A stretch of DNA of 36,967 bases from Selenomonadaceae bacterium (GTDB lineage Bacteria > Bacillota > Negativicutes > Selenomonadales > Selenomonadaceae): NCBI GenBank assembly GCA_029338835.1, contig JAQYBD010000042.1:1-36967 (forward strand). The letters run 5' to 3'. Made by a program: the position numbers and the translations under genes. Shown in pieces: positions 19,851-35,512 of this stretch. Within the stretch, counting starts at the first letter, position 1. Every line of letters starts with the position of its first letter. The notes beneath the pieces are model-generated. The model worked only from the letters and a program-made list of their open reading frames with translations, did no database searches and was not told the DNA's origin.

Positions 19851-20999
19851 ATGGCAGCAGACGAAACATCTATCATAAAGCCGAAAGTGAAGATCAAGGT
19901 ATTTGGCGTAGGCGGTGGCGGCAACAGTGTACTCATGCGCATGGGCCGTCACAAGGAATTGGATATCGACCTCATTGCCATCAATACCGATGCCAAACAG
20001 CTGGCACAGGCAGACGAAGCAGGTGTAGAGACGCTCCAGATTGGTGCGGATTTGACCAAGGGACGCGGGACTGGCGGCAATATTGCCGTTGGTGAAAAGG
20101 CGGCCAAAGATGCAGAAGGCAAGATCCGTGATGCCATGAACGGGGCAGACCTCGTTTTCATCACGGCCGGCCTTGGCGGTGGTACGGGTACGGGCGCAGC
20201 TCCTGTAGTCGCGCGGATTGCCCGCGACCTCGGCCTGCTGTCGGTGGGAGTCGTGACACAGCCGTTCAGCTTTGAGGGCAGCCGGAAGAAACGCCTGGCC
20301 AATGAAGGCCTGGTCAAGATGCAGTCGCAGATGGATGCTCTCATCCTGGTAGCGAATGACAACCTGCTCAAGTTACCGGAGAATCGCCACATGACTTTGG
20401 TCAAGGCCTTTGAATGTGCCGACAACATCCTGCTGCAGGCTATCAATTGCATCGCGGAACTCATCCTGACGACAGGCGTCATCAATGTAGATTTTGCCGA
20501 TGTCACGACGATTTTCCGCCAGAGTGACAGCAGCGATGCACTCCTGGGTATCGGCCGCAGTGCGCGCAGTGCTGTGGAAGCGGTGCAGCAGGCCGTCGAC
20601 AGCCCGCTCATCAGCAAGAGCCTGGAGGGGGCACGCGGCATCATCCTCAATCTGACGGGCGATAAGACGCTGAGCCTTTACGATGTAGATGAGGCCACGC
20701 GTTATATTTATGAGCATACGGATCCGGAAGTCAATATCATCCTTGGCACGGTCATCGATGATTCTCTGAGCGGCGATGTACGGGCGACCATCATCGCAAC
20801 GGACTTTGCAGACAGCGTGGTACTGAAGACGCCGGAAGTAAAAGTGCCGGAGAGCAAGGTCAAGAAAAATACGTTCTCACTCGAAACGCCAGGGTTCATG
20901 CAGGCAAAGACGCAGCCTGTGCGTTCCGCCGGAGCTTTTGCTATCCCGGCATTCCGCTTGACGAAGGAAGATGGCAGTCCGGAAAATCCGCAAAAATAA
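19851..20999 (+). CDS. ftsZ: FtsZ-family tubulin-like GTPase
   Basis: A 382-residue FtsZ, the GTPase that polymerises into the division ring. The GTP-binding signature GGGTGTG is at 109-115 and the synergy loop NVDFADV at 212-218, so nucleotide binding and hydrolysis residues look intact. The C-terminus ends with AIPAFRLTKEDG, close to the conserved peptide that binds FtsA and similar partners. It differs from common FtsZ: the N-terminal loop reads GGGGNSVLMRM rather than the usual GGGGxNAVNRM, and the following helix is altered. It is not near ftsA, ftsQ or mur genes but is followed by tcdA. It may be a second FtsZ; the genome is needed to tell. GAGGGG lies before the ATG. Confidence 0.92.
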   Translation: MAADETSIIKPKVKIKVFGVGGGGNSVLMRMGRHKELDIDLIAINTDAKQLAQADEAGVETLQIGADLTKGRGTGGNIAVGEKAAKDAEGKIRDAMNGADLVFITAGLGGGTGTGAAPVVARIARDLGLLSVGVVTQPFSFEGSRKKRLANEGLVKMQSQMDALILVANDNLLKLPENRHMTLVKAFECADNILLQAINCIAELILTTGVINVDFADVTTIFRQSDSSDALLGIGRSARSAVEAVQQAVDSPLISKSLEGARGIILNLTGDKTLSLYDVDEATRYIYEHTDPEVNIILGTVIDDSLSGDVRATIIATDFADSVVLKTPEVKVPESKVKKNTFSLETPGFMQAKTQPVRSAGAFAIPAFRLTKEDGSPENPQK

Positions 21000-22757: not shown

Positions 22758-22761
22758 GACA

Positions 22762-22799
22762 GGAAGCAGGACCATCCGGTACCTGCTTTTCCTTTTTTT
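22762..22799 (+). terminator. Terminator after gpsA
   Basis: GGAAGCAGG pairs with CCTGCTTTTCC (two bulged Ts), followed by seven Ts. Confidence 0.85.
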
Positions 22800-22812
22800 C
22801 ATCTCTGTGAAA

Positions 22813-22868
22813 TCTTCACATTTTCTTCACAATCCCGCAACATCTTCTGCACAGTCTTTGCGTATACT
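22813..22868 (+). promoter_or_regulatory. Promoter with direct repeats, probable response-regulator site
   Basis: TCTTCACA occurs at 22813-22820 and again at 22824-22831, 11 bases apart, one helical turn. A degraded third copy (TCTTCTGCACA) lies near 22843. A good -10, TATACT (22863-22868), follows but no consensus -35 is at the right distance. OmpR-type regulators bind such repeats and activate promoters with weak -35 elements, so this is a likely site for the adjacent response regulator. Confidence 0.55.
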
Positions 22869-22909
22869 GGGAACATCGAATGGTTCCCAGGTTCGCCGGA
22901 TTGCCGGCG
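22868..22909 (+). repeat. Two hairpins in the 5' leader of the Met/His-rich gene
   Basis: TGGGAAC (22868-22874) pairs with GTTCCCA (22883-22889), and CGCCGG (22894-22899) with CCGGCG (22904-22909). Both stems are perfect and lie between the promoter and the ribosome site. Neither has a T run, so they may stabilise the RNA or control translation. Confidence 0.45.
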
Positions 22910-22960
22910 CTGGGGATCAGCCTGCAGGATCGTGATTGAAAAGAAAGGAAGGTTTTCTTT

Positions 22961-23521
22961 ATGATGATGACGAATTACATGGAAGTACTCATGAGCAACC
23001 AGCCATGGAACCTCATTGCCTTCATGGTACTGCCTGTTGCGATGGCGGAGCTGCTGACAGCGGCGGAACTCTTCATCCTTGCGCGGCCGGAGACGAGCGC
23101 GGGCTGGAAGAAACTCAGTCACGGCCTCGGGATCGCTCTTGGACTCTACTTCCTCGGCGTGTTCTTCTGTTTCATCTTGCACATTCTCCCGGGCATCTCA
23201 CTACGCGGCTGGATTGACAAACTCGCCATTGCTGCGTATCTTGCCGGCGTCCTGCCGCTTGGCGCGATTGCTCTGCAAGAACTCGGCTTGTTCGGCGGCC
23301 CTTCGGCCAAGCGCCAGTGGCACCACATCCTGCTGCTTATCAGCTTCCTTGTCGTCAGCCATATCGCGATGATCTTCGGCATGGTTGACCCGACGCTCTC
23401 CGGCTGGCAGCCGGCAAGGCCGCAGATGGAGATGCAGCATATGGGGCACATGGATCACATGGACCATATGGGGATGGACAGCAGTATGCACCACGATTCC
23501 GTGCAGATGGATCACAAGTGA
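22961..23521 (+). CDS. Four-helix membrane protein with Met/His-rich tail
   Basis: A 186-residue protein of unassigned family. Four hydrophobic segments lie at about 17-40, 55-78, 87-109 and 119-141. Residues 153-186 form a hydrophilic tail with nine methionines and seven histidines, including HMGHMDHMDHMGM. Such tails bind Cu(I), Ag(I) or related metals in known proteins, so a metal-binding or metal-handling role in the membrane is likely but inferred. GGAAGG lies eight bases before the first of three tandem ATGs. It heads an operon with a response regulator and a histidine kinase, and repeats at its promoter suggest self-regulation. Confidence 0.8.
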   Translation: MMMTNYMEVLMSNQPWNLIAFMVLPVAMAELLTAAELFILARPETSAGWKKLSHGLGIALGLYFLGVFFCFILHILPGISLRGWIDKLAIAAYLAGVLPLGAIALQELGLFGGPSAKRQWHHILLLISFLVVSHIAMIFGMVDPTLSGWQPARPQMEMQHMGHMDHMDHMGMDSSMHHDSVQMDHK

Positions 23522-23528
23522 TTCTCAA

Positions 23529-23550
23529 GGGAGAGCAGCATTGCTCTCCC
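23529..23550 (+). repeat. Intercistronic hairpin
   Basis: GGGAGAGC pairs perfectly with GCTCTCCC around a six-base loop, just after the stop of the Met/His-rich gene. There is no T run, so it more likely sets relative RNA levels within the operon than ends transcription. Confidence 0.55.
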
Positions 23551-23627
23551 TATCGTCATGCAAAGGCAGGGATAGACGGGATTTTGGATCTCTTCCCAAT
23601 GCCTTATTTTCAGAAAGGATGGAACAC

Positions 23628-24329
23628 ATGCAACGAAGTGTCTTGATTGTCGATGACGACGTACGGCTGCGGCGCGTACTCATCGACTTCCTGCAGAAGG
23701 AGAACTGGCAGACACACGAAGCAGCAGACGGCATCGAGGCACTGAAAGCCGTTGCAAGATGCCACCCCTCTATCATCATCCTTGACCTTGCGATGCCGCG
23801 CCTCGACGGCATGGAGGTTTGCCGTCGGCTGCGCCAGACCTCACAGCTCCCGATCCTCATGTTGACGGCCCGCGACGACGAGGTCGACAAGCTGCTCGGA
23901 CTCGAACTTGGCGCTGACGATTACCTCGTCAAGCCCTTCAGTATGCGCGAACTCGCTGCTCGTATGAAAGCCATCCTGCGGCGCACGCAGCAAAAGCCTG
24001 GCAGCACACAGGAGGATTTCCTGCTCCGTTGCCAGGATCTTGTCCTCGACGTCCGCCGTCACACGGCATTCATCGGTGAAAGCGAGCTTCCCTTGACACC
24101 GATTGAGTTCTCGCTGCTCGAACTCTTCCTGCGCCATCCCGAACAGGTTTTCAATCGCCTGCAACTCCTGGAGGCCACACACGGTTTTGCCTTCGAGGGT
24201 TACGAGCGGACCATCGATGCCCATATCCGCAATCTGCGCCGCAAGATGGAGACAGCAGCCCCTGGGACAAAATACATCCAGACGGTGTACGGCATCGGCT
24301 ACAGATTAGGAGGAACCGGCCATGTTTGA
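23628..24329 (+). CDS. OmpR-family response regulator
   Basis: A response regulator of about 233 residues. The receiver domain has acidic residues DDD at 9-11, the phosphorylated Asp53 (ILDLAMPRLDG), Thr80 and Lys102 (DYLVKPF). The C-terminal winged-helix domain ends with ERTIDAHIRNLRRKME and YIQTVYGIGYRL, typical of OmpR/PhoB DNA-binding domains. I chose ATG at 23628, with AAGG nine bases before; the ATG at 23619 abuts that site. The last bases overlap the kinase gene by eight. It probably binds the direct repeats at 22813-22831 and activates the operon. Confidence 0.93.
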   Translation: MQRSVLIVDDDVRLRRVLIDFLQKENWQTHEAADGIEALKAVARCHPSIIILDLAMPRLDGMEVCRRLRQTSQLPILMLTARDDEVDKLLGLELGADDYLVKPFSMRELAARMKAILRRTQQKPGSTQEDFLLRCQDLVLDVRRHTAFIGESELPLTPIEFSLLELFLRHPEQVFNRLQLLEATHGFAFEGYERTIDAHIRNLRRKMETAAPGTKYIQTVYGIGYRLGGTGHV

Positions 24330-25410
24330 CCACTGCAGCATCCAGCTCAAGCTCGCCGGCAGCACCTTCCTGCTCTTGGCTTTTACTGTCTGCAGCTTGA
24401 TTGCCTTGACGAACGAACAGATGGAGATAGCCTTTGGCGATTACCTCGCCTTGCACATAGCCGTCATGGACCATGGACCGGCTGAGATGATGTTCATCCA
24501 CTCGGTACATCAGTCGCTCTGGTGGGTCGGCCTATTTTTCATCCTGCTCGGCTTCATCATCACATCCATTCTCGCCGCAGGCATCACGCGGCCGCTGCGC
24601 CGCTTGACAAAAGCTGCTGCGGCTGTGGAGCGCGGCCATTTCGACCAGTGCGTCCCTGTCGACTCGCGCGATGAGGTTGGCCATCTGGCCAACGTCTTCA
24701 ACAAGATGGCCGCCAAGCTCTCGCAAAACGAGCAGGCACAGCGCGACTTCTTCGCGAGTATCACGCACGAACTTCGTACACCGCTCGCTGTCTTGCAAGG
24801 TACCCTTGAGAACATGACGACTGGTGTCACCGAGCCGACACCGGAGCGTCTCTTTGCGATGCAGGAGGAAATCATGCGGCTCAACCGCCTTGTGACTGAC
24901 TTGCGCGACCTTTCGCTGGCTGCTGTGCATGAACTCCGGCTGCACCTGCGTCCGACCGACCTTGGTCAGCTTGCCCGCCAGAGCGCCATGCTCATCCAGC
25001 CGCTGCTCGACGAGAGCGCGCAGCAGCTCCAATGCCAGATCCCTTCGCGCCTTACACTGCTGCCGCTCGATGCAGACCGAATGCGGCAAGTCATCGGCAA
25101 TCTGCTCGTCAACGCCAGTCGTCATTCAGGCAGCGGCAGCCATATCCGCCTAAGCATCAGCGAGCAGTCCGACTGTATTGAACTCTGCGTCGCCAATGAC
25201 GGCCCGTGTATCGCCCCCGAAGACCTGCCCCATATCTTCGAGAAGTTCTACCAAAGCCACTCTGCCCAGGGCGCAGACGATGCCCGGCGCGGCTCCGGTC
25301 TCGGACTGGCACTCGCCCGGCAGTATGTAGAGATTCACAGTGGTACAATCTTTGCCACATCAACACCAGAAGCGGGTACAGTTTTCACGATGCGCCTGCC
25401 CAAAGCATGA
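24322..25410 (+). CDS. Sensor histidine kinase, possible metal sensor
   Basis: A 362-residue membrane kinase: membrane helix about 11-30, a short extracytoplasmic loop about 31-66, a second helix about 67-88, HAMP domain (ITRPLRRLTKAAAAVE onward), phosphoacceptor His149 in ITHELRTPL, and an ATPase domain with NLLVNASRHS (N box), VANDGPCIAPEDLPHIFEKFY (G1/F) and GSGLGLALARQYVEIH (G2). The extracytoplasmic loop holds four His (45, 51, 60, 63) and four Met (34, 49, 56, 57), a makeup that fits binding of a soft metal such as copper or silver. GGAGG precedes the ATG. It overlaps the response-regulator gene, so the two are translated together. Confidence 0.92.
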   Translation: MFDHCSIQLKLAGSTFLLLAFTVCSLIALTNEQMEIAFGDYLALHIAVMDHGPAEMMFIHSVHQSLWWVGLFFILLGFIITSILAAGITRPLRRLTKAAAAVERGHFDQCVPVDSRDEVGHLANVFNKMAAKLSQNEQAQRDFFASITHELRTPLAVLQGTLENMTTGVTEPTPERLFAMQEEIMRLNRLVTDLRDLSLAAVHELRLHLRPTDLGQLARQSAMLIQPLLDESAQQLQCQIPSRLTLLPLDADRMRQVIGNLLVNASRHSGSGSHIRLSISEQSDCIELCVANDGPCIAPEDLPHIFEKFYQSHSAQGADDARRGSGLGLALARQYVEIHSGTIFATSTPEAGTVFTMRLPKA

Positions 25411-25412
25411 TG

Positions 25413-25457
25413 AAAGGAGGCTGTTGCACGCAATGTGGCGTGCAACAGCCTCCTTTT
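25413..25457 (+). terminator. Terminator of the two-component operon
   Basis: A perfect stem of 19 base pairs (AAAGGAGGCTGTTGCACGC at 25413-25431 with 25438-25456) around a six-base loop, with Ts at the end. The start arm also carries As, so it could work in both directions. Confidence 0.92.
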
Positions 25458-34510: not shown

Positions 34511-35512
34511 ATGAAGAGATGGGAAAAATTACTGGCAGCTGGTCTTTTCTGCACGGCGGTGGCAGGCTTTTATGCTCCGGCTACGGAAGCTGCGTATCAG
34601 CTGAATCCGGAAGTCAAGAATGCAACGATGGCGTTGAAAACGGCATCGGAAATCGGTGTCTTGACGAATGAGAATAAAGATTTGGCTAACTTGCCGGATA
34701 AGGATGCCATTGTGGTCATGACATTTGGCACGACCTTCAAAGACACGCGTACCAAGACGATAGATGCTACCGTCGATGCCATCAAGGCAGCTCATCCTGG
34801 CGTCAAGGTCGTGACGGCTTACACGTCCCATATCATCATTGACCGCGTTGCCAAGAATGAAGGCATAAAATTCCCGACGCCGGAAGAAGCCTTGGAGCAG
34901 CTCAAAGCGGCAGGTTACAGCCGCGTAGCTCTCGTTTCTCTCGATGTCATCCCGGGCATGGAATACAATTACGATATGGGCGTCTATCAGAACTACAAGA
35001 ACGATTTCAAGAAGATGACACTTGGCACTTCGCTCATGTATTGGCAGGGGCAGGCTGAGCAGGCGGATGATGTGACGGAAACCATCAAAGCCATGGCTAC
35101 GCAGTTCCCGAAGCAGGGCAAGCATGATGCTATCCTCATCATGGCACATGGCACACCACAGGTCTCGAATGCATATTATTCCGTCATCCAGGCAAAGATT
35201 GATGAACTCGGCTATAAGAACGTATACGTCTATACGGTAGAAGGCTGGCCTTCCCTTGAAACCGTCATGCCAAAACTCAAGGCTAACGGCATCAAGAATG
35301 TAACGTTGATGCCGATGATGATGGTTGCCGGCGATCATGCGAACAATGATATGGCCGGTTCCGAACCAGATTCCCATAAATCCATCCTTGAAAAGGCCGG
35401 CTACAAAGTCACGCCGTACATCCATGGTATTGGCGAGAACAAGGCGATACAGGCAATCTATGTCGAGCGCGCCAACGATGCATGGCAGGCTCTCGAAGCG
35501 ACAAGCAAATAA
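34511..35512 (+). CDS. cbiK: Sirohydrochlorin cobaltochelatase CbiK, exported form
   Basis: CbiK inserts cobalt into sirohydrochlorin in the anaerobic cobalamin pathway. The 333-residue protein has the chelatase fold, with metal ligands His213 (IMAHGT), Glu244 (YTVEGWPSLE) and His276 (VAGDHANND), spaced as in the Salmonella enzyme. The first 28 residues are a signal peptide (MKRWEKLL, hydrophobic AAGLFCTAVAGF, cleavage near TEA-AY), so the mature enzyme should be outside the cytoplasm, as described for the periplasmic CbiK of Desulfovibrio. GGAGG precedes the ATG. Control is by the cobalamin riboswitch just upstream. No other cob genes or cobalt transport genes are in the window. Confidence 0.94.
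   Translation: MKRWEKLLAAGLFCTAVAGFYAPATEAAYQLNPEVKNATMALKTASEIGVLTNENKDLANLPDKDAIVVMTFGTTFKDTRTKTIDATVDAIKAAHPGVKVVTAYTSHIIIDRVAKNEGIKFPTPEEALEQLKAAGYSRVALVSLDVIPGMEYNYDMGVYQNYKNDFKKMTLGTSLMYWQGQAEQADDVTETIKAMATQFPKQGKHDAILIMAHGTPQVSNAYYSVIQAKIDELGYKNVYVYTVEGWPSLETVMPKLKANGIKNVTLMPMMMVAGDHANNDMAGSEPDSHKSILEKAGYKVTPYIHGIGENKAIQAIYVERANDAWQALEATSK

Follow-up and report, generated by a model that had tools for sequence, protein, structure and literature searches.

The window analysed here is a stretch of 36,967 nucleotides, which represents the entire contig C42 (JAQYBD010000042.1) of the 2.24-megabase genome of a Selenomonadaceae bacterium. According to a profile scan, three plus-strand genes lie between the genes for glycerol-3-phosphate dehydrogenase (PF01210/PF07479; upstream) and CarD. 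They code for a membrane protein of the family DUF6803, a response regulator and a sensor histidine kinase, and are candidates for a copper- or silver-responsive unit. The features of the locus are as follows.

22758 to 22800, plus strand: hairpin (fold -19.8 kcal/mol, z -5.0) with a T-run behind it, which terminates the glycerol-3-phosphate dehydrogenase gene upstream and thereby insulates the operon.
22814 to 22831, plus strand: proposed operator of the response regulator, a perfect direct repeat CTTCACA-TTTT-CTTCACA with a period of 11 base pairs (bp); there is no second perfect copy in the genome, and the repeat is conserved 5' of DUF6803 genes across Negativicutes.
22837 to 22853, plus strand: two further, weaker repeats that keep the 11-bp phase, GCAACA (22837-22842) and TGCACA (22848-22853); TGCAYA occurs at exactly +33 in 15 such promoters including that of the window, and the third repeat is weak.
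22863 to 22868, plus strand: -10 element TATACT, 37 bp from the second repeat, with no recognisable -35 element (activator-type promoter).
22961 to 23521, plus strand: gene for the DUF6803 membrane protein of 186 residues, with four predicted transmembrane (TM) helices and a Met/His-rich C-terminal tail (residues 153-186; PF20617, E 1.1e-52).
23528 to 23551, plus strand: intergenic stem-loop between the DUF6803 and regulator genes (-18.6 kcal/mol, z -5.8; no T-run after it).
23628 to 24329, plus strand: gene for the OmpR-family response regulator (PF00072 and PF00486).
24322 to 25410, plus strand: gene for the sensor histidine kinase with two TM helices and a short Met/His loop (HAMP, HisKA and HATPase_c domains).
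25415 to 25457, plus strand: operon terminator, a strong hairpin ending in TTTT (-39.3 kcal/mol, z -8.9).

The regulator gene starts at the codon with the best-placed ribosome site (23628), and overlaps the kinase gene by eight bases. The intergenic stem-loop is a possible transcript-end or attenuation point. A preliminary description of this DNA, made from its letters, had bounded the unit at 22813 and 25457; the former position coincides with the perfect direct repeat and the latter with the end of the strong hairpin. Among named organisms, the operon has its closest relative in Mitsuokella jalaludinii DSM 13811, where the first protein is 91% identical and the operator is the same. There, the DUF6803-regulator-kinase unit sits among other neighbours than in the window, which argues that it travels as a block. 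Note that genes in all other loci were called by a simple script and that some starts are wrong; key neighbours were checked with profiles, and the rest were assigned by reading.

The product of the first gene scored 178.9 bits with DUF6803 (PF20617; curated cut-off 27) over residues 1-155. The four helices and the 34-residue tail with nine Met and seven His that had been noticed from the sequence were recovered: the counts are exact, and the helices are also present in an AlphaFold2 model (m84c15787559c), which consists of four long helices (predicted local distance difference test, pLDDT, 77.6; predicted template modelling score, pTM, 0.64). Of the other distinct proteins encoded at related loci (1578), none reaches 16 Met and His among its final 34 residues (mean 1.6, maximum 13), and the runner-up within the window has six. 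DUF6803 is present in 67 of 300 genomes of Negativicutes and in 21 of 398 genomes sampled phylum-wide; outside Negativicutes it was found in Clostridium, Campylobacter concisus, Pasteurellaceae, Magnetospirillum, Methanomicrobiales and others. Homologues that consistently lack the tail had been named as a finding that would speak against a metal-responsive unit. Instead, Met and His make up at least 20% of 116 of the 141 DUF6803 tails that comprise at least 10 residues, compared to 8% of the core.

The core of the family is conserved as well. Met7, Met22, Glu30, His134, Met137 and Met141 are invariant across 73 aligned DUF6803 proteins from Bacteria and Archaea, and this invariant Met/His core is more conserved than the tail. 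The loops between helices 1 and 2 and between helices 3 and 4 are rich in Lys and Arg; according to the positive-inside rule, both ends of the protein, and hence the tail, would therefore face outward. In the C. concisus loci L136, L145 and L161, the DUF6803 gene lies directly 3' of a gene resembling those of TorD-type chaperones, and the tail is very rich in Met and His. Three Selenomonadaceae genomes with DUF6803 but without the sensor (loci L039, L040 and L061) encode His-dominated tails (HSHTHS, HSHDHS and HEHSHGHKH). L040 retains the operator and a remnant of the regulator, which suggests a recent loss of the sensor and perhaps a changed metal.

A search of solved structures with the DUF6803 sequence gave a single weak match in the tail region (E 0.01), and Foldseek found nothing below E 0.4 for the model in the PDB. 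VIA-align Z values of up to 11.5 to assorted four-helix bundles represent helical-bundle background and are uninformative on ancestry. No relatives were detected in viral contigs and no PHROG matched; the plasmid search yielded one weak match from Deinococcus ficus (34%). A literature search returned no paper naming DUF6803. Two copper proteins were considered as possible identities and rejected. CopM proteins are marked by a DUF305 domain and a signal peptide, to which the sole match to DUF6803 and the four TM helices do not fit. For Ctr-type copper transporters there is no match in Pfam, the protein has four helices rather than three, and only the MxxxM motif is common to both.

The composition of the core raises the possibility that DUF6803 is mainly a Cu(I) transporter, for import or for lateral transfer across the inner membrane, whose tail only captures the ion. 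The path would then comprise MxxxM (M137-x3-M141), His134 and Met22. The invariant MxxxM and His lie in TM helix 4, Met22 and Glu30 in TM helix 1, and Met7 in an N-terminal helix; moreover, the distant and nearly tail-less members L146, L164, L169 and L180 have kept the core, which suits a function of the core better than sequestration by the tail. However, no Ctr-type or other transporter family was matched, there is neither a solved sequence relative nor a clear fold match, and the operator described below is shared with efflux operons, which suits detoxification better than uptake. A transporter is thus conceivable, and we consider it the less likely role. DUF6803 probably binds or moves Cu(I); because of the operator common to efflux operons, sequestration or hand-over of the metal to export would be favoured.

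The assignment of the following two genes to an OmpR-type regulator and a histidine kinase was confirmed by their Pfam domains; Response_reg and Trans_reg_C of the regulator are those of an OmpR-type pair. The loop between the two helices of the kinase comprises about 37 residues and contains four Met and four His, in agreement with the earlier count. In an alignment of the sensor region from 18 genomes, the invariant residues are Gln33-Met34, with which helix 1 ends, Glu55, and His63, where helix 2 begins. The loop itself varies in length and in many cases has a very high content of Met, Gly and His; examples are MSHMMGNSQMGMGGMGSMGGMHGTMHG from a Megasphaera locus (L055) and MHGGTMHGGMMHGGMMGGGMGMMG from an Acidaminococcus locus (L037). 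The phospho-acceptor His149 is invariant in 17 kinases. Two Sporomusa-like genomes (G119 and G107; loci L191-L197) possess four to five paralogues of the sensor kinase, eight to nine exact operator sites and many small Met/His-rich exported proteins, and thus appear to have an unusually expanded copper programme.

The distribution of the sensor, which was determined with a profile of the sensor region alone, follows that of DUF6803. The sensor region was found in 84 of the 300 Negativicutes genomes. Of all 300 genomes, 61 have both partners, six have DUF6803 only, 23 the sensor only, and 210 have neither partner (odds ratio 93, Fisher p 4e-37). For Selenomonadaceae alone, the corresponding numbers are 10, 3, 2 and 94 (p 4e-10). 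Shared ancestry inflates these p-values; the effect is large in both partitions. The kinase gene lies at most 5 kilobases (kb) from the DUF6803 gene in 34 of 65 intact loci; it follows DUF6803 in 26 of these, precedes it on the same strand in five, and is divergent from it in three.

The promoter of the DUF6803 gene provides a second link between the two partners. The pattern CTTCAYA-N4-CTTCAYA precedes DUF6803 in most Negativicutes loci, even if the regulator genes are located elsewhere. It is missing in L039 and L061, the genomes of which are devoid of the sensor as well. The second repeat starts 15, 26 or 37 bases 5' of the -10 element in 51 of 53 promoters, i.e. in steps of exactly 11 bases; the promoter of the window belongs to the 37-base type and bears TGCAYA at +33 as a fourth repeat. 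A direct repeat in the target promoter, as expected of a CopRS-type system, is therefore present; it is phased to the -10 element and represents the putative binding site of the regulator. The consensus was first noticed in DUF6803 promoters, and independent support comes from two counts. The first is based on 602 kb of loci, which had been retrieved via the sensor or DUF6803 and not via the repeat: they contain 92 sites, nearly all of them intergenic, compared to 0-2 in shuffles of 40 sensor loci. The second is class-wide: genomes with the sensor have 1.57 exact sites on average, those without it 0.23 (p 5e-21). The sites precede genes for DUF6803, for the regulator-kinase pair, for a multicopper oxidase, and for SHOCT and exported Met-rich proteins, as well as operons for resistance-nodulation-division (RND) pumps and TolC. 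Some Clostridium loci bear a similar repeat. One particular exact site, CTTCACAGTTACTTCACA, is often present as an extra copy in genomes of one Selenomonadaceae genus, g2 (G011, G062, G072, G097, G152, G262 and others), even without a sensor kinase. Further near matches in the genome of the window are weak sites only (14, compared to 6 in a reversed control), so that no additional members of a regulon are claimed for it.

Genes within one class share ancestry and co-occurrence counts are not independent; the pairing of sensor and DUF6803 might hence reflect neighbourhood and common descent only and have no functional meaning. We regard this as very improbable, since the association holds in Selenomonadaceae alone and in three gene orders, the operator stays in front of DUF6803 even when the sensor gene is far off, and the unit of M. 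jalaludinii has moved as a block among different neighbours.

The neighbours of sensor relatives, named by profile or by reading, point to copper. Among the loci in which DUF6803 is not beside the sensor, CsoR, regulator, kinase and CopA stand in a single row in L220, the sensor adjoins CopA together with CsoR in L216 and L218, and in L199 it lies beside an RND pump of the CusA/CzcA family, a CzcB/CusB-like adaptor and a TolC-like channel. CopA is also a neighbour of the sensor in L055, L056 and L059. The order in L084 is regulator-kinase-DUF6803, with CsoR and CopA a few genes further on. Copper-translocating ATPase (TIGR01511), the CsoR family (PF02583), both above cut-off, and multicopper oxidase were confirmed by profiles; the RND pump reached 683 with TIGR00914 (cut-off 701), the protein being a fragment ended by the edge of the locus. 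Copper genes are therefore found among the neighbours and putative targets of close relatives, as expected for a CopRS-type system in the functional sense. The absence of a standard efflux pump next to the operon, as previously described, holds for the window, whereas some relatives have CopA/CsoR or an RND pump alongside. In the genome of the window, CsoR-CopA is encoded on another contig without the operator, and the cytoplasmic and outer-face copper responses thus look separately controlled. Small SHOCT-domain membrane proteins recur next to the sensor kinase or under the repeats (L084, L199, L210, L213, L215, L221 and L227) and are likely an overlooked member of the copper regulon.

Instead of copper and silver, the system might answer to Zn, Ni, Co or general envelope stress, with the Met/His richness being incidental. 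The top-scoring curated models of the pair are indeed the envelope-stress regulators BaeR and BaeS, the His-dominated tails of L039, L040 and L061 occur without a sensor, and CbiK-like cobalt chelatase genes were noticed by reading near some homologues. The scores for BaeR/BaeS are, however, far under the cut-offs, and the genes next to the sensor encode copper-type pumps, repressors of the CsoR family and multicopper oxidase. Met-rich loops furthermore prefer Cu(I) and Ag(I), which is established chemistry. A different stimulus is therefore rather unlikely.

Taken together, it is quite probable that the operon constitutes a self-contained two-component unit of the CopRS type, which responds to copper or silver and has DUF6803 as a new effector. 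This assignment, which the preliminary description had proposed from ligand chemistry, is backed by three results of sequence comparison: sensor and DUF6803 are associated, they share an operator, and relatives lie in a copper context. Of DUF6803, the preliminary description had seen only the tail, and it missed both the operator and the invariant Met/His/Glu core.

Several observations weigh against a CopRS-type unit. The kinase scored 169.4 bits with the CusS/CopS/SilS model TIGR01386 (cut-off 292.55), and the regulator 158.9 bits with the CusR/CopR/SilR model TIGR01387 (cut-off 279.2). The ligand chemistry of sensor and output, which had been described as matching, does so qualitatively; quantitatively, the Met/His richness of loop and tail correlates weakly (rho 0.31, p 0.09). 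Within 250 bp, no operator was detected in some loci of Megasphaera and in a few others; in L062 it is placed 410-420 bp upstream, and L057 has it about as far away. Moreover, 26% of the Selenomonadaceae without the sensor carry the exact pattern, often as the recurring site CTTCACAGTTACTTCACA. Finally, the partnership does not hold everywhere: outside Negativicutes, the sensor is absent from all 19 genomes with DUF6803, which must be regulated otherwise there.

We infer the ligand, the direction of regulation, the topology and the action of DUF6803 as follows. The kinase would sense Cu(I) or Ag(I) outside the inner membrane by means of Met34 and His63 at the membrane edges and the variable Met/His-rich loop, and would phosphorylate the OmpR-type regulator. 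The regulator would bind the tandem 11-bp repeats at 22814-22831 plus the two weaker repeats up to 22853 and recruit polymerase to the promoter lacking a -35 element, so that DUF6803, regulator and kinase are transcribed as far as the terminator (25457). The output of DUF6803 may exceed that of the regulator pair, should the stem-loop at 23528-23551 restrict read-through. In the inner membrane, DUF6803 would bind Cu(I)/Ag(I) via its extracytoplasmic tail and the intramembrane Met/His/Glu set, and might either sequester the metal or pass it to export. Extended to the whole family, and with somewhat more confidence than doubt, we propose that DUF6803 is a widespread class of membrane proteins that handle Cu(I)/Ag(I) by an invariant intramembrane site (M7, M22, E30, H134, M137 and M141) in Negativicutes, Clostridium, Campylobacter, Pasteurellaceae, alphaproteobacteria and methanogens. 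Within Negativicutes, the protein would be a core member of a previously undescribed copper regulon of the CopRS type defined by CTTCAYA repeats.

This proposal offers a testable function for an uncharacterised Pfam family with members in both Bacteria and Archaea. For Negativicutes, a class of diderm Bacillota, it predicts a copper/silver regulon together with the operator. Many Negativicutes are strict anaerobes, in which copper occurs in the more toxic form Cu(I) and copper oxidases that need oxygen are inoperative. A non-enzymatic membrane protein for copper handling would therefore make sense. The minimal operon, whose operator is single in the genome, further offers a compact candidate for a copper/silver biosensor.

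Two further genes of the window were noted in passing. A gene for a CbiK-type cobalt chelatase is located at 34511-35512 (PF06180). By reading, CbiK-like genes adjoin DUF6803 in about six Sporomusaceae-type loci (e.g. L083, 6798-7679), which may be a coincidence. An FtsZ-like protein of 382 residues (19851-20999; Tubulin and FtsZ_C domains) is encoded upstream of a ThiF-family gene and outside a recognisable division cluster; it is possibly a divergent FtsZ paralogue.

A literature search for copper two-component systems in Negativicutes or Veillonella returned nothing relevant, and one for short Met-rich sensors returned only a Pseudomonas CopRS paper. Escherichia coli CusRS and Pseudomonas aeruginosa CopRS (PMC7763554) resemble the present pair in the periplasmic sensing of Cu(I)/Ag(I) by His and Met, the OmpR-type regulator and the copper-efflux targets, which are found here in relatives. 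They differ by a folded periplasmic domain of more than 100 residues, compared to about 37 residues between the helices here, and the present pair stays below the cut-offs of their families. The copMRS operon of Synechocystis sp. PCC 6803 encodes a Met/His-rich copper-binding protein together with CopRS (PMC4335983, PMC4182526). It shares with the operon of the window the gene order effector-regulator-kinase, the Met/His-rich effector and a regulator that is reported to act on a TTCAT repeat (PMC4335983, PMC4182526). The spacing of that repeat is TTCAT-N4-5-TTCAT, and CopM is a soluble periplasmic or extracellular DUF305 protein, whereas DUF6803 is a four-helix membrane protein. CopRS of Corynebacterium glutamicum is a copper-excess system whose 31-residue loop contains three His and two Met (PMC3140484). 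The short extracytoplasmic His/Met loop, the OmpR-type regulator and the direct-repeat operator are found in both systems; note that the loops were compared by composition and length. The operator of C. glutamicum CopR is TGAAGATTTnnTGAAGATTT, the binding of which was proven by gel shifts with mutations (PMC3140484). Its complement reads AAATCTTCA-nn-AAATCTTCA, i.e. CTTCA with an 11-bp period, and the window reads AAATCTTCACATTTTCTTCACA. The targets differ: in C. glutamicum they include multicopper oxidase, a P-type ATPase and others, and no DUF6803 protein is described (PMC3140484). Judged by sequence, the unit of the window would thus work like CopRS and copMRS, but with a regulator and a kinase below the CusR/CusS cut-offs and with an effector from another family.

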